From Diadema setosum (lineage: Eukaryota; Echinodermata; Echinoidea; Diadematoida; Diadematidae), in contig CM067064.1 of assembly GCA_033980235.1 (NCBI GenBank), positions 2,406,501 through 2,470,500 of the forward strand: a stretch of DNA of 64,000 nucleotides. The letters are read 5' to 3'. Below are positions 53,331 through 64,000 of the stretch, one piece after another (positions within the stretch are counted from its first letter, which is position 1; each line of letters opens with the position of its first letter). The notes under the pieces are model-generated. The model made no database searches. It saw only the letters and a list, made by a program, of their open reading frames with translations, and was not told where the DNA came from. The position numbers and the translations under genes are program-made.

Positions 53331-53473
53331 GGCTTTCTCACGAGTAACATCAATATATCTGCTTTCATGTTAAGATTTCAAACACTGTAGGCATACACTC
53401 ATGAATTATAATAAGAACCCCTTTCTGAGAGTAATTATGTTTAAGGGATCTTAATGAGATCCTTATTTCACAA

Positions 53474-54042
53474 TTAAAGGACAATTTCACCTTCATAGAC
53501 ATGTGGGTTCAGTGAATGCAACAATATTAGTAGAACACGTCTGAGAGAGTTTGAGGAAAATCGGACAATCCATTCAAAAGTTATGAATTTTTTAAGTTTC
53601 TGCTCACTTAAGGCTGAATGAGAAGACTACTATAGCTTGTGATGTCACATGTGTACATCGATATAAAGAAAGATCAAAGAAAATTCAACATATTCCCACT
53701 TTTCTCGCATTAGTTTTGAACACTTGACTTCTCTCTTTCAGAAGGCAGGGGGAAATAATATTACCCTTAACATTATGTCAGTAACAAGTCGAAGAAATAT
53801 GCACTTTACTCAAAAAGTAAGGTTTTGTGAAATTCTCCTTTTATTTTCTTTATATTGTTGTACGCATATGACATCATACATTGTAGTAGTCTTCTCATCT
53901 AGCGGTGACTGCGCAGATACTTAAAAGATTCGTAACTCTTGAACGGATTGTCCGATTTTCCCAAAACTTTCATTGATGTGTTCTACCAATATTGTTGCAT
54001 TAATTAAATCCACAAGTATTAAAAGGTGGACTTGTCCTTTAA
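53474..54042. mobile_element. TTAA-flanked long-TIR MITE, copy 2
   Basis: TTAAAGGACAA at the left and TTGTCCTTTAA at the right. The internal arms share 'agtagaacac', 'gaaaatcggacaatc' and 'aaaagttatgaatttt' with copy 1 at 35526-36091, so both belong to one family. The arms are more diverged than in copy 1. Confidence 0.8.
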
Positions 54043-56900
54043 ATTTGAAGACTTGGTAACCCTTCAATTTCATTTTTAATGATTACTTACGGTAATTTTT
54101 TTTCTGCATCATTTCAATAATGGCCTGTTATAATATGGCTACACAAGCTTTTAAGTGAGGTTCTGTCCAAAGCTATGGCATATCATAGTTCACGTCACAA
54201 TCATTCCATTAATTATTTTTACATAACAGGCGCTAAGAGGAAATGTCCTCACCGACTGGTCATTTGCGGAATTCAATATATTTGCATTTGCTTTAATGAC
54301 AGCCAAAAGAGTTAATTAGAATTCTGGGTAATGCCCTTTCAAAGAGTTTTCAAGATTTGATATTGCATTTTTATTTTCATCTTCATCTGCAAGGAATGCA
54401 ATAAAAACATACATATATGAGAAATAGAATCCTATTGTTACCTAATATATTAATAGTTTAGCAATAAGGGGAGGGGGCTACTCTCTATATTACCAGCGTC
54501 CTTGATGTTACCACTAAAAAAAGAAGTGTTTTTATTTCTCTGTTGCAGTTCAAGATATTCATAATTCAGATTTAAATTCAATGAAATAATAATTATGAAG
54601 ATCACTCCTAATCTGGATGAAAGAAAAAATTCTATCGTGTTAAGAGAGTTTTTAGTACATCAGGTTGGCATCAATTTGCTATTTTCGAACTTGTGTAAGA
54701 AAGTTCTATTCTAAAGTCCTTATAGGAAATTGTATGTTTCTCCACAGCTAAATATGCCGTTCAGAGAACATGACGGTCCTGCTGACGCCATGTAGGGAGC
54801 AAGCATATTTCACTGGTGCCACAGTGACACCATTAACAGGGTACAGATTAGATATGTTATAATACAACTTTCATGACACCTTCTAGGGTATGTTAAGATT
54901 CTGTCCAAAGTGCTTGGACGCAAATTGGTATGATATCACAAGACTTTATAAGTTGGTATCTCGTTGGTCTGAAGACTATAGGTTGCAACTCTACTCTCCG
55001 CAACATCTCTACGACGCACGTCTCCTGGAGACGAGCCCGATCTCCAGGATCCGCAGGAGAATCGAACATTTTCGATTTTTGCAGAGACTATTTCCGTCTT
55101 CCAGCTTGTCTCCGAGACGTCTCTGCGAAGTCTCCATCACTGTGGCCATGTCTTGGGGACTAAATTTGTCTGCAACATCTTCGAGATGTCCCCGCATCTT
55201 GTGGAGACCGTAATAACATAATGGCGACGAAAGGGACAAGTCGCTGAGAAAAGACGTCTCTGATAAGTCCCTGCGACTGCAAAAGCCGTGCCAACACCCC
55301 CGTGACTTCCAAGCAAACAAGTTGTCCCTTTGTTTGAAGACGTCTTGGACGTCGCTCTGGAAATGGCGTTAGTTGTGAAATAATTTCTTCGAGACGCTGG
55401 CATAGCGACAATGTCTCCTATCGTCAGATAGGCCCTCAATGCCCTCCCTCCCCCCCCCCCCCCCACTTTAAGTTTGCAGCGGTATCAAACTACATTGTAC
55501 TGACCATGGCTCGCCTGACACCTGCTCTTACATTGTGCATTTTCACATTCATTCATTCATTCATTCATTTCATTATTTTTTTCCATTTCCATGTTTTCCA
55601 CCTCCAAATGCATGCCTTGAAACAGCTGTTGTGCAGAAGAATGAAATTTGGTACTGACATGACTGAAGCATTGCGGAGAGTGGCCGATAGTACTAGTAAT
55701 TGCCATGTACATATACCTGTGTCATCTTTCCCCCAACTCCGCTCCCTGAAGTCAGGGATCACATCATGACCCATGCTGTCATGATTCCAGTAGAAACTTG
55801 CAGCAGCCAGATCTGCTCCCACGTTATGACGAGATGATGCCTGCCGTCGTTGACGCTGGTTGCTCCATAAACCTTGTTGCTCATCAGTCCTTGCTGGACA
55901 TGAGCACGATTATTAAGGTAGTTAGTGTGTCACTGAGCTCTGGTTTGCTTACCCATACTGCTTAGGCATTTTGCATGCCACATCAAAGCAAGTCTGAAGT
56001 AATGTCGCACCCTGTCAGTGCCTGATGTTGGACTCTGGAAGAGAGGTATGCTGTACAGGAACGAGCTGAAAAGGCCTTTATCTTTTCAATACCACGACCC
56101 ACCCGTAACTCCCTCAGATCAAAGGGATTAAAAAAAGAAAGCACACTACCGAAAATGTGATGTTATGCTCATCCGTACGAATGTATACTGTTTTCAGAAA
56201 ATGCTTTCAGAAAACGTTATGTCATCCTTTGTAAGGATATCTTTGCGTAGATCGCATATAAGTTGTTGGAAAGCTGAAGGGTTGTATGATCACAATTCCT
56301 GTTGGATATTTCCGTCTCGTATCAGGTGCTCAGGATGAGTTGTCCGTCCCATTCATTCTTGGATATCTGTGCGCTGATAAATGAGGGCAGTTCTTTATTT
56401 TTCAATCTTAATTTTCAGGAAGCCGCTACACTCGTCCTATCATAATTTGAGATTTGAGTGGTGCCATCACTATCTCTTGTCAGAGGACAGCACATGCAGT
56501 GTTGCTGCGCAAAAATGTTAAGATTATTTTCTTCAGGATCAGTATCCCACACAACATCAATAGGTGTTCAGTTTCCCTAGTCATTTGCTCTTTCAGTAAA
56601 GAAACGGTTTCGTTTGATAAAAAGAGAATAGAAAGAGATAAGAAAAAAACTTCAGCTGAATTGTCTTCACCTACTCTGATAAGATACTGCCATTAAAGTA
56701 CTTTAATAATCGAATTTAGCTAACTGCCCCTAAAATACTGGTCTGACCTGGATTGAGAAGCTCGATTCCCTGGAAGCTTCGGCCATTGCTTCCTTCACTG
56801 AAGAAGCAGACGCTGTTTTGTCAAGGGAGAACAGGCATACACCAATTTCAGCAGGAGGAGAATCATATCGTTTGCCAGCTGAAAGTTATATATTGACCAT
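54043..56900. other. Gene-free stretch with a GTCTC/GAGAC-rich segment
   Basis: At 54900-55420 variants of GTCTC, GGAGAC and CGACGTC recur densely, like subterminal regions of DNA transposons, but no terminal repeats were found. Then comes a poly-C run (55451-55463). The rest shows no gene I can support. Confidence 0.45.
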
Positions 56901-57275: not shown

Positions 57276-57356
57276 GGCGTGTTTATTACCCTCTTTGCCT
57301 TTGCACCCTGATTCGGCACCTTGGAATACTATGGCGGCCGTATTTAAGCATGTTTA

Positions 57357-57361
57357 TGTAT

Positions 57362-57414
<53 letters not shown>

Positions 57415-57440
57415 TATATTATATATATATATATATATAT

Positions 57441-57487
<47 letters not shown>

Positions 57488-57511
57488 TATATTATATATA
57501 TATATATATAT

Positions 57512-57556
<45 letters not shown>
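57357..57556. repeat. (AT)n/(TATTA) microsatellite
   Basis: About 200 bp of (AT)n with regularly placed TTATATTATA interruptions. The open frame through it is meaningless. Confidence 0.9.
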
Positions 57557-57558
<2 letters not shown>

Positions 57559-58036
57559 TGTGGCGAAGTTCGGTCGCACTGCGATGTCGCAGTCATATAT
57601 CCCTGGTCCTACGGCTCTATGTGTGTTGTGAATAACTTGTTGGTAGATGTGTGATGATAGATTGGTGTCTACGACGAACTTCGGTCAGGATGGCCAAGCT
57701 AGGCGCGAGTTCGTTCGGCCGCAATATACGGCCCAAGATACCAGTTAATTCCTACTACCAATTTTATTTCTACCAATTATCTACCAGTTCTCCATCAACA
57801 GTCCATCATACCAGCTTCATCATCACAGTCCATCATACTTAAAATTCTCACGTAGGAAAAATCACTCTTCCCTCGATGGTTTAACTTCCAACTGGTAGTC
57901 TTTAATTCCGATTTAACTTCTGCTCAACAACAGTCCAATAGTCCAATACACATTCACAGCTTACTGCGCCGTCCCGGTCTTGCTACCATAAAATCCCGAA
58001 CCTTAAGTCCCGTCCTGGCGGCCTGTCATGTATTAC
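57559..58036 (-). other. Candidate 3' LTR of the Ty3/Gypsy-type element
   Basis: It begins TGTGGCGAAG and ends CATGTATTACA, so on the minus strand it runs TG...CA, 478 bp, with an internal AATAAA (in 'gtagaaataaaattggtag'). The CTACCA words typical of 59.9-61.1 kb are also frequent here, which hints at the same element. No polypurine tract or second LTR is visible and the nested LINE complicates the boundary, so this is only a candidate. Confidence 0.3.
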
Positions 58037-58092
58037 AGATCTAGGCTAGCTGGCTTCCAAATGCTAGCTAGCTTCTAGGCTAGCTAGCTTCC

Positions 58093-58953
58093 AAATGGAA
58101 ACATCAAATTCACATATTTACTGATGGATCCAAATTGCCAAATGAAGGCAATTCAGCTGCCGCCTTTTACGTGCCATCACTTCGCTATTTCCAATGCAAA
58201 AGATTACGTGATCACACATCATCATATCGAGCAGAACTATCTGCAATCATCCTCGCCCTAAACTGGCTTGAGCAATTAGACCTCCACACAGGAGCTGTCA
58301 TATTCAGCGATTCGCTGAGCTCACTTAAAGCCATCAAATCACAACCGTACGACGACAACTTCATCACTGAAATCAGGACAATTGTCACTCGTCTAGAATA
58401 TAAAGGCACGGACATCTCACTCGAATGGATTCCGTCACACTGTGGAATTCACGGCAATGAAGCCGCTGATTCCCGAGCTAAAGAAGCCTTGACGAAACCT
58501 ATCGAAATCTACAACGACCTTAGTTTTTCAGAGATAAAGTCAGTCCTTGTAACTAAGTATAAAACAGAATGGCAAAGTAAGTGGAATAACTCAACCTCCT
58601 TTCTAAAAACCATCCAATCATCTGTAAATTTTCAACCATTCACATGTCATCTTCCCAGACAACATGAAATGATTATACACAGGTTGAGAATGGGCTGTCT
58701 CGGCCTTAACTATGATTTAGCAAAAATAGCAAAACACCCCACAGGAAACTGCCCCCATTGCCCCACTCCTGAAACAGTTATACATTTTCTAATAGAATGG
58801 CCGAAATATACAATAGAAAGTGCCATGTTAATGGCAGAAACCAACATAAATCGTGACTCTGATATCATTAAACTTTTAGCGTCTCAAAATCGAAATATTC
58901 AAAATTCCATAATCACATTTGTGTACAGGACAAATCGTTTGAGTCAAAGATAA
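58093..58953 (+). pseudogene. LINE fragment with RNase H domain
   Basis: This is the C-terminal part of a non-LTR retrotransposon polyprotein of the RNase H-bearing (I/jockey-like) group. The RNase HI catalytic set is visible: 'FTDGS' (D), 'SYRAELSAI' (E), 'IFSDSLSSLKAI' (D) and 'GNEAADSRAK' (D), preceded by 'WIPSHCGIHGN'. A C-terminal knuckle 'CPHCPTPETVIHFLIEWPKY' has Trp where the family normally has Cys. The frame is open from at least 58093 through TTG at 58135; no own start is present, so it is 5' truncated. The 3' UTR runs to 59342 ('aataaaatgaatat') or to the (CAA)n at 59700. Confidence 0.8.
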
Positions 58954-59700
58954 GTTTGACGAACCTTAAAGATTATAATGTAGTATTTTTATAATGAAGT
59001 GTAAAGTAGAAAATTTATTTTGTAAAATTTGTAAAACAGTGAATTATTGATATTATGTGAATGTGTATTTGTATGATCTCAGATGTATACATGAGTAGGT
59101 ATGAGTGTGTATATAGGCATATACACACATGCATATTATATCATATGCCGCAGTGTATATTAGTATTCGGAAGATTAGTGTAGATGTTTTATTTTACATG
59201 TACATTAGAATATGTTGAAGGTATAGGCCTACCACCAGTGCACCTATCTTCATCATTTGCACCCTTGATTCTGCCCACAAATGTTCGCTATATACATATT
59301 GAAAAAAAAAGATAAATAAAATGAATATATTTGGATTTGGATTATATCGGAATATTGTTCTCCACACGCTCAGGCATGACGGTCGCCACCATCCTTCTCG
59401 AGTTACCTAGGGCGCACGCCTGAGAAGCCTGCGAAACGCATTTCGCCGGGTTGGTAAGACAGAACCGAGGGTGGCAACGTGGCCGTTTTGACTGAGCGAG
59501 GAAAACATCAAAATTTTTATGATTAAAATAAAAATATGGTTGGAAATAAAACAAATATGGATATTATGATAGAATTTAAATTTGTTAAGAAATATTGATA
59601 ATTAATCTATAGGGAAATATATATATTATATAGTCTGGCAAAAATAGTCAAAATTATGACTGATTGCCATTAAACCTAAAACAACAACAACAACAACAGC
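58954..59700 (+). mobile_element. LINE 3' UTR and (CAA)n tail
   Basis: Non-coding sequence after the RNase H frame. There are two possible ends: an A-rich 'aataaaatgaat' end near 59342, and a typical 'gattgccattaaacctaaaa' end with (CAA)n at 59681-59700. The second may belong to another element. Confidence 0.5.
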
Positions 59701-59945
59701 GATCAGGAACACACTATCCTGACCATCGCCTTACTAGAAACTGCTTATACACAGCTCGAACTTTGAGAGCTCGATCCAACTCGACTGCTATGCACGTTTC
59801 ATACACAGATCTAGGCTTGGTTAGCAATCAGGAACACATTATCCTGATCATCGCCTACACTAGACTGTTCCGTACACGGCTCAAGTTAGCTTTGATAGCT
59901 CGATGCAACTCAACACGTACTAAGACATGTTTACCTTATCCGTCC
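59701..59945 (+). repeat. Two-copy tandem repeat, period 125 bp
   Basis: 'Gatcaggaacacactatcct' at 59701 recurs as 'aatcaggaacacattatcct' at 59826, followed in both by 'catcgcc', 'gctcgatccaactcga' (variant) and 'cacg'. Confidence 0.8.
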
Positions 59946-60816
59946 CACCTCGACGACGAGCCCAAAACTAAATTGCCCAATTATATTTTTACTCAATAAT
60001 TATAAGCGTAGTTAATCAATATTTCCACCACTAATACACCAATGGGGGGGGGGGGGCAATTCTTACCAAACCCCTACATATTTGGTCTCAAATTACTGGT
60101 ATCAATTATTTCTCCCTGAAACATAAGTTATCTTACCCCCTCTATGCCCCTATCTTACATAATATTCAGCAATTTAACCAAAACCGGGATTTTGGACCTC
60201 ACTTATAATAACGTTACTACCAAATAATAATCGATTACGCTTTAATACTATCGATAGTGAATTATACCCGGCTTATTATACACAAATCATCTTGCGGAAA
60301 TAATCGATTTCGCTACACGACCCCCCGACCCACCAAGTTCGGTCCCCGAGCTTATACTACTTTCAATTCTAAACACTATAAACGTCAACACTTTAAACAC
60401 AAACCGACCTCCATTACATTCCGACTGGTATCAACTACCAAAACACTTATACTGGTGTCCACCACCAAATCTTTTAAAACATCATCTTATGAATTATAAT
60501 AACACTCATTGCTTCTTTCGGACCATAAACACTATGTACATTCTAATGCTACTCCTCCAGCCTTGTCTAATACCTCTGCTTCCAACATGGACACAACAAA
60601 CTCTAACTTTGAGAAGAAGAAGAAGGCTAAGGCTCCATATATACCAATCGCAATGTTGATACCGATATGATTCTACCAACTCTTCCGAACAATTCTACCA
60701 ACACCTGGTATCGCTTTAATCACTTTACTCCACTACCTCTCGGGACGACTACATCTCTGTACATAAGCTTCATTGATACCAACTTAATACCATCATTCTT
60801 TGAGAACAATTACATT
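59946..60816 (-). other. Non-coding stretch downstream of the C2H2 ORF
   Basis: AT-rich sequence with frequent CTACCA or ACCAAA words on the plus strand and a poly-G run (60045-60056). It is probably the 3' untranslated part of the same element as the ORFs to its right. I see no gene. Confidence 0.45.
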
Positions 60817-61104
60817 AGTAATGTCCATCAGTCCTTGGGAAATGTTCATTGTTAACAACTTAATGTCCAATTTAAAACGGGCAGATTAAATTTAGCGTCC
60901 GTATCTGCCCTTCTCTACCAATAATCGCTTCCACATCTTCCTTCCGGTGTCTGCTAACACTTTCACTATCTTCGCGAATAATTAACTTGGTAATACTCAT
61001 CGGTCCTCAAAACGTCCAATTATAACTTATTGTCCAAACTCAACTGGGCAAATTATGTTTAACGTCCATATCTGCCCTTGCATTTCTACCAAATTTCGCT
61101 TCCA
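60817..61104 (-). repeat. Degenerate tandem repeat, period about 171 bp
   Basis: 'Taatgtccatcagtcctt' to 'ataatcgcttccac' (60819-60933) recurs diverged as 'taatactcatcggtcctc' to 'aatttcgcttccac' (60991-61105). The shared core is 'cgtccgtatctgccctt' / 'cgtccatatctgccctt'. The second copy ends exactly at the stop codon of the C2H2 ORF, so it is its 3' UTR. Confidence 0.7.
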
Positions 61105-61836
61105 CTACTTTTCCTCCACGGTTTCGGTCACTACCTCCAAAAACTCGCCACCAGTCGTCAAGAACCGCCCCGTCTTCCTGGTCCACGTTCGGCCAGGCCA
61201 CAACACCAGCGTCTCGGTAGCGCTGAAACTGGTCTTCCCTCTGCGACGTAATTCTCCTAGCCTCCCTCGGATAATCCCCCCGTCAATGTCGGATGGTGAC
61301 ACCTGGGCCCCGATTTCACATGTTACCGGGGATTTGACTTCAGGTACCACGTCCTCTATCACGAATCGCCTCCTTCCGCCCGTCAGGTCGAGGAGCCCGC
61401 CGCCATAGTTGTCCTCATCCAACACCGGGGTACTGCTTCTTTCAGATGTGACGCTCCTCACCGGGCTGACACTTCTCTCAGGGGTGCACCTCTCAGGCGT
61501 GCACCGGGAAGGGGTTGGAGTAGAGGGGCACAGGGGGGATCTACTCCTGGGTCTGGTTTCCGTTGACGGCGGTTTCTTACTCCTAATTGGCGCATAAACT
61601 GGGGTTTTCAAATGTACCCTCCCTGGAGCTACATCGGTGGCGTGAGTCCCGTAGTGGCGTTCTAATTCTCGCTTGTGCAGCGTCTGGAAAGCACAGCGAT
61701 CACACCTAAATTTTGGGGTGTGCACGTCGAATTCGTGTCGTTGCATCGAGCTTCTACTGGAAAAGGACCGCCGGCACACCTTACAACGGTAGACTTCTCC
61801 CCTATCTGAACAGGACTTGGGCTTGGGGGTAGACAT
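61105..61836 (-). CDS. Intact C2H2 zinc-finger ORF downstream of Nanos ORF
   Basis: A 243-codon intronless ORF. The ATG at 61836 has A at -3; an in-frame TTG lies five codons upstream. Two C2H2 fingers lie at residues 18-39 (C18, C21, H34, H39) and 45-65 (C45, C48, H61, H65), spaced by a short TPKFR linker. A Ser/Pro/Arg-rich region (about 75-125, with SPxCxPExC repeats) and an unrelated C-terminal half follow. I do not recognise a named family; nucleic-acid binding is inferred from the fingers. It starts about 170 bp after the Nanos stop on the same strand and is followed by tandem repeats, not an LTR. It could be an accessory ORF of the retroelement or a host gene. The frame is intact. Confidence 0.65.
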   Translation of the reverse strand: MSTPKPKSCSDRGEVYRCKVCRRSFSSRSSMQRHEFDVHTPKFRCDRCAFQTLHKRELERHYGTHATDVAPGRVHLKTPVYAPIRSKKPPSTETRPRSRSPLCPSTPTPSRCTPERCTPERSVSPVRSVTSERSSTPVLDEDNYGGGLLDLTGGRRRFVIEDVVPEVKSPVTCEIGAQVSPSDIDGGIIRGRLGELRRRGKTSFSATETLVLWPGRTWTRKTGRFLTTGGEFLEVVTETVEEK

Positions 61837-62008
61837 CGTTCTGTTCAACAAATAATATCAATCGAATGTTACTCGCGACTTTAATCAAATCCCTACAGTC
61901 ATACAACACATTTTATAATCAACTCGTGCGAAGTTGGTATCTGACATGGTCCATATTCGCTGCTGCTTCTTCTCTTCCGGTGTTAGCCGCTGGACGCTGG
62001 CGGTGCTG

Positions 62009-62677
62009 CTACCTGGTATCACAGCTCCTCAGCCGTCCGGTAGCATTCCGTGGGGTTTTGAAATACAGCCCCGCTGTGCTGACGTCACTGGTAGATCCCG
62101 GCCCTGCTGACCCAGGCAGCTTTTTCTTCTTTAATAACGGACAGTACTTAATCGTGTGAGCCTCGTCCCCGGTGGCACGACAAATCGGGCATCTGTATGC
62201 CCGAAGTACAGGACAGGTAGTTTTCCCGTCTATGGACTTCAGCGCATGGCTTCCGTAGACCTGCAAACTTTCACCATTGTTTTTGCAGAAAACGCACCAA
62301 GCCACCGATCTGCTGAGTGGTCCATCACTTCCATCTCGTCCTCGTAGAGCGGTGATGACTGGTAGAATCCCCTCGTTGCTCAGCCAACGGCTACCAGTTG
62401 ACAGACACCCAGCTGCATCGCCGTCCTTCCGTAAGGCCGGATACTGGTATCTCGTCCCTAGGTCCTGGGATCCACTCTTTTTCGTCACTGTCGCTTCCCA
62501 TTCGTTTGACCCCAGGTAGCTATTGAACGGGCCTCGCACCTGTTCAAAATCAAAGAACTGGTCGCCCGTCTCTTGGTCCACGGACTCCCTCTTCTTCTTC
62601 CCCGTTGATACCAGATTACTCAGCCCGAAATAATCGTTGAAGGGACTGTACAAATCCCCCTCTTTGAAAGATGCCAT
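62009..62677 (-). CDS. nanos: Nanos-type zinc-finger protein, intronless, 222 codons
   Basis: Nanos proteins are germline translational repressors that work with Pumilio and recruit the CCR4-NOT deadenylase. The double finger is complete: C128, C131, H144, C155, then C163, C166, H174, C179, which is exactly CX2CX12HX10CX7CX2CX7HX4C, with the family words [19 protein letters not shown] and KYCP. Near the N-terminus, residues 12-23 ([12 protein letters not shown]) match the NOT1-interacting motif, and residues 50-56 (PFNSYLG) look like a second, partial copy. The start chosen is ATG at 62677 (G at -3 and +4); GTG at 62716 and a weaker ATG at 62704 lie upstream in frame. The stop is TAG at 62009. 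It begins about 118 bp after the retroelement pol stop on the same strand. Identity is very likely; host gene or element-borne is open. Confidence 0.88.
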
Positions 62678-62794
62678 GACGTCACCTGCACTGCACCTGC
62701 ACATTAATGATACCACAGTCTGTAATCCTCTTTATTTAGCTCGTCGAATATATTCGAGTACCACTCGATTATTTAGATTCGTTACTTAGCCTAA

Positions 62795-63322
62795 TTATCT
62801 ATAATACTGCGGCCGACGCCTATCCCTCCTCGGATAACGCCTTACCCCATTCCATTCATCATCGTCGTACGCCGTAGGCACAGTCGGAGACTCCCGGTTC
62901 CTAACTGGCGATTGAGAATCCACTTCTCCCTCTTCATAGGTAGAGGGGTGGGTAGCATCAGCTTCTTCCAGCCCTGACTCTTCCAGCTCTACGTTGGCAG
63001 CAGTGCCTCGCTGCTGGTTTCCATCCTGTACCACCTCCCTGTTTGGCTCGAACTCCCAAACTGGTCTTGGTACCCCCGTGTACTGCTTCAAACGATCTAC
63101 GTGGACAACCAGTGGCTTGGACCGAGGCGTCAATTGGAGTCGAACAGTCACGTCGGATAACTTGGTGACTATCAGGTACGGTCCCAGCCATTTGGTCTGC
63201 AGCTTTGGACTCTGGCCTTTCACCCTCATCTTGCGTCGTAGCCATGCATACTGGCCCTGGTTGAAGGCAGATCCATAGGCCTTCTGGTCATAGAACTGTT
63301 TCTGCTTCCTACAGGCCGACAT
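62795..63322 (-). pseudogene. Ty3/Gypsy integrase C-terminus with GPY module
   Basis: This continues the same frame after the single TGA. 'KQFYDQKAYG' is the usual start of the integrase C-terminal region. 'KLQTKWLGPYLIVTKL' holds the GPY motif (residues 47-49 from the ATG at 63322) and 'VVHVDRLKQY' ends the module. An acidic and then basic tail of about 90 residues follows (EEADATHPSTYEEGE; RRYPRRDRRRPQYYR). The stop is TAA at 62795. No chromodomain is seen. Confidence 0.85.
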
Positions 63323-63337
63323 CTGTTTTGCCCTGGC

Positions 63338-64000
63338 TCAGTTGTGGGCCCTCTGCATCCGAATCCGTAGCCCCTCCGCGTAATCGGTCTGGAGGTCCTG
63401 CTGGCCGTCAACATCATCTGGTGTGACGAGGTCCCCGGGTAGTACCAATTCTCGCCCCAACATTAGCATGTTGGGAGTTTCCCCAGTCGATTCCTGAGCA
63501 CAGCTACGGTAGGCACAGGTGGCGAAAGGGAGGAGTTGATCCCAATCCTTTTCCTGCCTCTCCACGTCCAGTAGTGTAGCAACTGTGTCTATTAGTGTGC
63601 GGTTGTACCTTTCTACGAGCCCGTCTGACTTCGGGTTGTAGGCTGTGGTCCTGGTCTTGTTCACCCCCATCAGTTTGCAGACTTCACTGAAGACTTCAGA
63701 GATGAAATTGCGGCCTTGGTCTGAATGCACGAATCTCGGCACTCCAAATCGACAAATGTACTCCACCACTAATTTCTCCGCCACTGTCTCCGCCCTTTCA
63801 TCTGGTATTGGGTAGGCCTCCATCCATTTTGTGAAGTAGTCGCCAATCACCAGGATGTACTTGTTCCCATGCTTGGTACGGGGGAAAGGGCCCATGATGT
63901 CCAGTGCCACCCTCTCCATCGGGAACCCACTAATTCTTTGTTGTAGTGGTGCTCGATTAGCTTTACCAGAACATTTCCTTCTGGCACATACGTCACATTG
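63338..64000 (-). pseudogene. Ty3/Gypsy integrase, catalytic core (partial)
   Basis: Integrase inserts the element's cDNA into host DNA. The core has its first Asp in 'VALDIMGPFP', the second in 'HSDQGRNF' and the Glu in 'DGLVERYNRTL', with 35 residues between second Asp and Glu (DX35E). 'CDVCARRK' at the edge is the end of the HHCC zinc-binding domain. The frame is open to the window edge upstream. It ends in a TGA after 'RMQRAHN', five codons before the ATG of the next frame and in the same phase. That TGA is a probable point nonsense mutation in an otherwise clean pol. Confidence 0.85.

Follow-up and report, generated by a model that had tools for sequence, protein, structure and literature searches.

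Nanos is a conserved regulator of germ cells and acts by translational repression via CCR4-NOT; why should its gene lie directly behind the pol gene of a retrotransposon? Retroelements need expression in germ cells for their inheritance, and it is there that hosts silence them. The question is raised by a stretch of 64,000 nt from the sea urchin Diadema setosum (scaffold C6:2406501-2470500), hereafter the window, to whose positions all coordinates refer unless a scaffold is named. At its end, a Ty3/Gypsy-type pol, a Nanos open reading frame (ORF) and a second ORF with two C2H2 zinc fingers follow one another. An initial annotation of this DNA had proposed a retroelement with a captured Nanos or, alternatively, a single-exon nanos gene of the host downstream of a 3'-truncated element. 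From searches of the D. setosum assembly (885.7 Mb), we consider that the best explanation as a whole, with a probability of about 85%, is a damaged copy of a Ty3/Gypsy family carrying a captured Nanos, with a presumed role in germ-cell repression. The capture of Nanos by a Ty3/Gypsy element is, in itself, virtually certain.

A multi-copy unit with the order pol-Nanos-C2H2

In the window, pol, Nanos and the C2H2 ORF are arranged in tandem on the minus strand with no long terminal repeat (LTR) in between (Table 1). From the pol stop at 62795 to Nanos we measured 117 nt, and from Nanos to the C2H2 ORF 172 nt, close to the ~118 and ~170 bp of the initial annotation; as the LTR is ~1 kb long, it fits neither gap, and the LTR between pol and Nanos that had been named as speaking against a retroelement is absent. 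Both accessory ORFs are intact, as had been claimed: the first scores 87 bits for zf-nanos, where the cut-off is 27 (Pfam), and aligns at its NOT1-interacting motif (NIM), and the second encodes 243 aa with two fingers. Upstream, the end of pol contains Integrase_p58_C (E 1.2e-12) and SH3_Tf2-1 (E 6.3e-8), preceded by an integrase core (rve, E 1.2e-13; all Pfam) that continues beyond the window end. One in-frame TGA interrupts this pol at 63340-63338, and the window copy is hence damaged, its Nanos and C2H2 frames being still open. The element extends past the 61105..64000 segment first noted, with its 3' LTR inside the window and its 5' LTR outside.

A six-frame search of the assembly returned 16 Nanos matches, eight of which are close (88-100%, the window copy included) and spread over five scaffolds (C6, three copies; C7, two; C5, C11 and C12). 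The order pol-Nanos-C2H2 is found in all eight, although c2 has lost part of pol, and the seven other close copies (c2-c8) are 84-98% identical in nucleotides, piece by piece, to the window copy. When the 5' side of each copy was compared with its separately retrieved 3' side, LTR sequence was located on both flanks of 7/8 copies and on the 3' flank only of c7. The two LTRs are 100% identical over 1005 bp in c4 and 99.7% over 1005 bp in c3; the values are 98.5% in c8, 98.3% in c5, 95.9-99.1% (in pieces) in c2, 98.6% over the 350 bp found in c6, the far end of whose 3' LTR was not located, and 96.8% over 622 bp and 99.8% over 486 bp in the window copy. The LTR reads TGTAGCGAAATCGAT...TTCGCCACA, with TG...CA termini and ends shared across copies, and 2 nt past the 5' LTR most copies have the primer-binding site TGGTGTCAGGAGTGGGAT, which we take to be complementary to the 3' end of tRNA-Leu.

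Regarding insertion sites, a target-site duplication (GTAT) is present in c3, in AT-rich DNA; five other copies lie in (TA)n, where a duplication is indiscernible, and c6, with a less repetitive 5' flank, and c7 each lack one outer end for the comparison. The 3' LTR directly abuts (TA)n/atatat in six of the seven copies with a 3' end (window copy, c2, c4, c5, c7 and c8). In the window copy, c2, c5, c7 and c8 (pieces L009, L010 and L013 on the 5' side; L018, L021, L023 and L024 on the 3' side), a segment made up of the terminal ~50 bp of the LTR and the primer-binding site is tandemly repeated two to three times, so that repeated ends vary in length (1005-1149 bp aligned) and some copies hold several primer sites.

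In c3 and c8, gag-pol runs without a break through 1761 codons as a single frame; in c4 it is open through the 1415 codons of the piece examined, and in the other five copies it is interrupted. Three pieces of c3 gag-pol gave a CCHC knuckle, a gag-type protease, reverse transcriptase (RT), RNase H, H2C2, rve, p58_C and SH3, the order protease-RT-RNase H-integrase thus being found in one pol, and the best solved match of its RT-RNase H piece is the Ty3 RT (4ol8, E 2.9e-82). The Nanos ORF is open in 6/8 copies, with stops in c2 and c5, and the C2H2 ORF is fully open in four (window copy, c3, c4 and c5). In c6, the latter is split by a ~19-kb insertion (C7:1539156-1558027), beyond which the last C2H2 codons, the 3' untranslated region (UTR) and the start of the 3' LTR are found at C7:1558.0-1559.2 kb.

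The host nanos is a separate, single-frame gene at C4:20204432-20205064, 98.6% identical to the Diadema protein P0005. A decayed relative of it lies at C4:16.837M (L030 4084-4361) and a second, distinct Nanos-type gene at C15:21.438M (L028 4161-4730); no pol or C2H2 match at E <= 1e-3 was found at any of these three loci (L028-L030, 8.0-9.5 kb each). Given the same order in 8/8 copies, the flanking LTRs and a separate host nanos free of pol and C2H2, the Nanos of the window is a captured one, and the alternative of a host gene adjoining a truncated element is rejected; the dispersed, LTR-bounded copies that the initial annotation expected of such an element do exist.

Older copies complete the family. 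At C18:24.125M, Nanos and then C2H2 follow a pol (nucleotide identities of 84.7% for integrase, 79.7% for Nanos and 83% for C2H2); at C18:3.586M the same two ORFs (~66-75%) have just upstream only a 96-bp piece of the pol end, and at C14:24.615M (62-74%) no pol was found. All three have stops or frame breaks. An old C18 copy also shows a tandem duplication of the C2H2 ORF and part of the 3' UTR (L025 5717-7348).

The element Nanos and its relatives

The available text of Bhandari et al. (PMC4003280) describes the vertebrate Nanos NIM as binding CNOT1 and sufficient for repression, its F1, W4, D6, Y7 and L10 as nearly invariant, and the motif as found in echinoderms. The corresponding residues of the element Nanos are Y, F, D, Y and L, the Diadema host Nanos having the same Y/F. 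The key NIM residues are kept in 10/12 Nanos sequences compared (c2 has a stop just after them) and the tandem CCHC-CCHC zinc ligands are intact in 10/12. The element protein is thus predicted to keep both working parts, the CNOT1-binding NIM and the double CCHC RNA-binding domain. It is a full-length, intron-free Nanos of echinoderm type: like the echinoid host proteins (the D. setosum C4 gene, i.e., P0005, and Lytechinus P0007/P0009), it has the double CCHC, the NIM and a C-terminal TPR-x-x-x-GR; unlike them, it is multi-copy, lies inside LTRs and has a fast-changing linker, with ~38-46% identity over its length. With the Diadema host Nanos it further shares an N-terminal PFxDYFGLxxLVST as well as the C-terminal TPRxxxGR. 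An AlphaFold2 model of the protein (predicted local distance difference test score, 41) was set aside, an NCBIfam scan gave no match, and one scan of viral contigs returned no Nanos relatives.

In protein searches, four Diadema clusters (P0001, eight member sequences; P0002, three; P0003 and P0004, one each) match the window Nanos at 89-95% identity, and the host-type Diadema proteins P0005 and P0006 (one each) at 42-58%. Judging from the proteins, the 89-95% identity makes P0001-P0004 very probably transposon genes, and the entries annotated as 'nanos homolog 3-like' or 'uncharacterized' would be unsuitable as host nanos in annotation. Outside Diadema, none of the best 120 of 614 profile matches exceeds 42% identity over >=70% of the query, and the higher identities among these 120 cover little beyond the fingers. 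In a tree of 28 rows (including 6/8 close copies, 2/4 Diadema clusters and a choice of other matches), a clade at 90/91 unites the element sequences, those of both C18 copies and the D. antillarum proteins P0002 and P0004 among them. The phylogeny with host Nanos genes proposed by the initial annotation therefore sets the element sequences apart, but leaves the donor unplaced, with weak support. Long-branch rows make this tree unsafe, as they do the position of C14 in both the Nanos and the C2H2 trees.

The C2H2 ORF and a sister lineage with a second retropepsin

The C2H2 ORF has 32 matches in the assembly, which, beyond the Nanos-bearing copies, amount to five places at ~41-51% identity and a few weak ones. 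In four of these five (C16, C20, C7:24.58M and C5; L032-L035), gag-pol relatives lie upstream of C2H2, with RT/RNase H pieces at ~73-83% and integrase at 78-80% in C16 and C20, and an aspartic-protease ORF stands between pol and C2H2 (Asp_protease_2, E 5.9e-9, Pfam, in the C20 copy, the one scanned). This second retropepsin is free-standing (L033 2280-2846, minus strand), with homologues in L032, L034 and L035, and is unusual as an accessory gene in its own right. The copy at C7:24.58M is partly deleted, the one at C5 badly decayed and the fifth place, on C11, carries an internal deletion; in none of the five places was a Nanos match obtained at E <= 1e-3. The C20 copy has LTRs of 921 bp, 100% identical, in (TA)n, and the C16 copy no 3' LTR within the 5.3 kb examined. 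In the C2H2 tree, the sister-lineage ORFs form one group at 100/100. Against the 5.8-billion-protein set, the C2H2 ORF drew 1325 candidates, none at E <= 0.01, and against PDB generic C2H2 chains (53 at E <= 0.1).

The sister lineage thus shares with the Nanos-bearing family a related gag-pol, the C2H2 ORF (~44% by tblastn) and the primer site (identical in L032/L033), and differs by a second retropepsin in the slot occupied by Nanos. As the C2H2 ORF is also present there, it belongs with gag-pol to a common frame, and the slot between pol and C2H2 holds variable cargo. We tentatively propose that this slot is modular, one branch using a captured Nanos to control germ-cell host or element mRNAs and its sister holding a duplicated retropepsin. 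The 'env position' of the initial annotation holds in the topological sense of lying after pol; as an env it does not, the two ORFs matching zf-nanos and C2H2 and no Pfam env family. The occurrence of both lineages in (TA)n microsatellites also suggests a target preference of the integrase.

Possible uses of the element Nanos

Ranked from the most likely, the candidate uses are repression of host mRNAs, autoregulation, mere carriage as a passenger and action as a decoy. The first, germline translational repression of host mRNAs, still falls short of an even chance. According to this proposal, Nanos and C2H2 would be made from spliced or subgenomic RNAs, as the AG acceptor-like sequences ahead of both start codons suggest. 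The AG before the C2H2 ATG is present in 7/8 copies and retained across an indel (in c6 it was not located by exact string); a scan of four copies for a GTRAG donor gave none in the leader and, in three of them, one ~580-660 nt downstream. The element Nanos would then bind RNA, probably with Pumilio, and recruit CCR4-NOT to selected mRNAs of germ cells or early embryonic precursors, so that these are repressed or deadenylated; expression and inheritance of the element in these cells would thereby be favoured.

Alternatively, Nanos might act on the element itself and, together with Pumilio bound to the 3' UTR, switch its RNA from translation to packaging or storage. The window copy does have one Pumilio-type site (UGUANAUA/UGUACAUA) in its 3' UTR (60540-60533, minus strand), as do 5/5 other close copies scanned (of seven), with 0.13 expected per region. 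Within the family, conservation of the 3' UTR is good (96.4-97.5% identity along the whole length between the window copy and six others, c2 having only part of it), and one of two 3' UTR units of the older copy L026 has the motif at what is taken, from spacing, as the same place. However, this is a single site in non-independent copies, at the aligned place it is one base off in L025 and lost in the other L026 unit, and none was found in L027. We therefore hold autoregulation to be unlikely, if the least so of the alternatives. From the pol end to the LTR, the DND1-NANOS motif AUGAAUU occurs 0 times. The same 3' UTR contains two ~138-nt units (61104-60969 and 60934-60797, minus strand), each able to form GGGCAGAT...AT(C/T)TGCCC; the stem is broken in some relatives, and one of its pairs is G-C, G-U or A-U among them. 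These units may serve in the export or packaging of RNA.

A further possibility, which we judge distinctly improbable, is that Nanos was captured by chance and is carried since it is not costly, with no role for the element. Compared with c3-c8 by Nei-Gojobori counting, from which gapped and stop codons were excluded, the window copy gave ratios of nonsynonymous to synonymous rates (dN/dS) of 0.10-0.14 for the integrase core, 0.21-0.24 for the pol end and 0.27-0.44 for C2H2.

Several observations on Nanos weigh against our interpretation, and some of them are what a passenger would leave. Its whole-ORF dN/dS in the same comparisons is 0.84-1.07, and nine of the ten pairs among c3-c7 differ by 6-7 nonsynonymous and 0-2 synonymous changes (the c3-c4 pair by 0 and 1), values near 1 among young copies that speak against strong recent constraint on the whole protein. 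Nanos is stopped in 2/8 copies, a zinc ligand is lost in one copy and one D. antillarum protein, a key NIM residue is lost in two of 12 sequences, and private changes hit the fingers (8/39) and the NIM (5/39) about as often as expected, not rarely; these look random, as expected after insertion. Moreover, the older copies are dead, so that part of their divergence is decay, and synonymous distances to them are large or saturated. The Nanos tree is short and weakly supported, and places neither the donor gene nor the C14 copy.

Nevertheless, four lines of evidence run counter to a passenger. The first is the frame, kept since the split from the C14/C18-type copies at low dN/dS. With the window copy and c4 as young references and gapped and stop codons left out, Nanos gave 0.48-0.50 for C18a, 0.24-0.26 for C18b and 0.12-0.19 for C14 (synonymous distance near or over 2, i.e., saturated), and the fingers only gave 0.33-0.39, 0.10-0.14 and 0.08. 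Secondly, fixed changes spare fingers and NIM: all 18 nonsynonymous differences that distinguish the window copy from all six of c3-c8 fall outside these 55 and 15 codons, with p ~0.001 if codons are taken as equal and independent, (152/222)^18; fixed synonymous differences, four with one in the fingers, are too few to serve as a control. Thirdly, neutral survival of the frame is improbable, since, with indels ignored, 1.3% of the simulated frames were still open at 0.2 substitutions/site and 0-0.05% at 0.4-1.0. Lastly, copies with near-identical LTRs still carry Nanos. The synonymous distance between the window copy and c3-c8 is far lower in Nanos (0.053-0.061) than in integrase (0.23-0.27), and the window copy is hence probably a mosaic produced by template switching.

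Slightly less probable again would be a decoy competing with host Nanos for Pumilio or CNOT1, so as to release host mRNAs or weaken silencing. Divergence is unrestrained in the linker that lies outside fingers and NIM (window copy against c4, dN/dS 1.41 on few changes), and both binding surfaces are kept in most copies; the retained NIM, however, suits an active repressor equally well or better, and no dominant-negative feature was seen. Of the two readings that would do away with the element Nanos altogether, a host single-exon nanos fused to a 3'-truncated element, which the window alone leaves ambiguous and which recalls the host gene of D. setosum, likewise a single open frame, has next to no probability in view of eight dispersed copies of the same order, of the LTRs and primer site flanking the unit and of a host locus whose 9 kb examined hold neither pol nor C2H2. 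An assembly artefact or chimera, to which multi-copy repeats are prone, is just as improbable given eight loci and closely similar Nanos proteins annotated separately, on other contigs, in D. setosum and D. antillarum.

Layout of the window copy

The features of the window copy are collected in Table 1. Its 3' LTR is split by a nested element with RNase H (E 3.7e-10), LTR homology breaking at 59700 and restarting at 58051; we take this insertion as 5'-truncated and foreign to the Nanos-bearing element. Elsewhere in the window, an inverted repeat at 53467-53703 / 53813-54049 (237-nt arms, 77% complementary, 109 nt apart) is perhaps a foldback or miniature inverted-repeat (MITE)-type element.

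Table 1. Features of the Nanos-bearing element copy and its insertion site, in window positions
Feature	Position	Strand	Basis
(TA)n microsatellite, insertion site adjoining the 3' LTR end	57350..57558	no strand	sequence; LTR end abuts atatat
Distal part of 3' LTR, terminus TTCGCCACA	57559..58051	minus	99.8% to own 5' LTR, 486 bp
Nested non-LTR retrotransposon (long interspersed nuclear element, LINE) in 3' LTR, RNase H ORF and (AAC)n tail	58052..59699	plus	
Proximal part (U3) of 3' LTR, start TGTAGCGAAATCGAT	59700..60317	minus	96.8% to own 5' LTR, 622 bp
Polypurine-tract-like G-rich sequence directly before 3' LTR	60318..60334	minus	like stretch in five other copies shown
3' UTR, two diverged ~138-nt units	60318..61104	minus	sequence comparison among copies
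C2H2 accessory ORF, 243 aa, two fingers, S/P/R-rich tail	61105..61836	minus	weak Pfam C2H2 matches
Spacer Nanos-C2H2, ends ttgttgaacag/aacg ahead of C2H2 ATG	61837..62008	minus	sequence
Nanos ORF, 222 aa	62009..62677	minus	zf-nanos E 9.7e-25; PDB 3alr E 6.5e-19
Nanos double CCHC zinc-finger domain, codons 127-181	62135..62299	minus	Pfam, alignment
NIM-like CNOT1-binding motif Y-x-x-F-x-D-Y-x-x-L, within codons 10-24	62606..62650	minus	alignment; positions as in the available text of PMC4003280
pol C-terminal end (integrase C-terminal domains) and stop	62795..63337	minus	Pfam
pol integrase core, cut by window end, TGA at 63340-63338	63338..64000	minus	Pfam, sequence

Significance and comparison with known systems

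If our interpretation is true, this family directly exemplifies how a transposon can take over a control protein of the germline itself, and it makes testable the question of whether an element can alter germ-cell fate or translation in its own favour. The protease found in the same slot of the sister lineage shows, in addition, that accessory genes are exchanged.

No Nanos-bearing retroelement is named in the titles and abstract openings of the open-licence papers listed for nanos together with transposable elements or for captured or accessory ORFs, and nanos is absent from the available text of a paper on a sea-cucumber genome that mentions gypsy many times (PMC13228809). We judge the Nanos-bearing Ty3/Gypsy element to be new, and its cargo unusual, host-gene capture as such being already known from the accessible parts of reports on retroviruses and LTR elements (PMC4299795, PMC6431247).

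With Ty3/Gypsy elements (Metaviridae), the Diadema family shares LTRs, a tRNA primer site, a polypurine-tract-like sequence and a one-frame gag-pol with the standard domains; it differs in that Nanos and C2H2 are added on its 3' side as further ORFs, without a match to env in either. The C. elegans element Cer1, as depicted in the available text (PMC10309623), is likewise a germ-cell LTR element with an extra protein, CERV, made from a spliced mRNA and handling the element RNA; that text calls CERV a novel protein, in contrast to a captured Nanos. Closest in the retention of cargo are the crocodilian endogenous retroviruses with KIT-ligand or nectin3, which, as far as the accessible text goes, retain captured host coding sequence in proviruses, purifying selection being reported for the KIT-ligand-type ORFs (PMC4299795). 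These, however, are vertebrate elements that took up cell-surface or growth-factor genes, whereas the Diadema element has placed a germline RNA-binding repressor within a Ty3/Gypsy unit.

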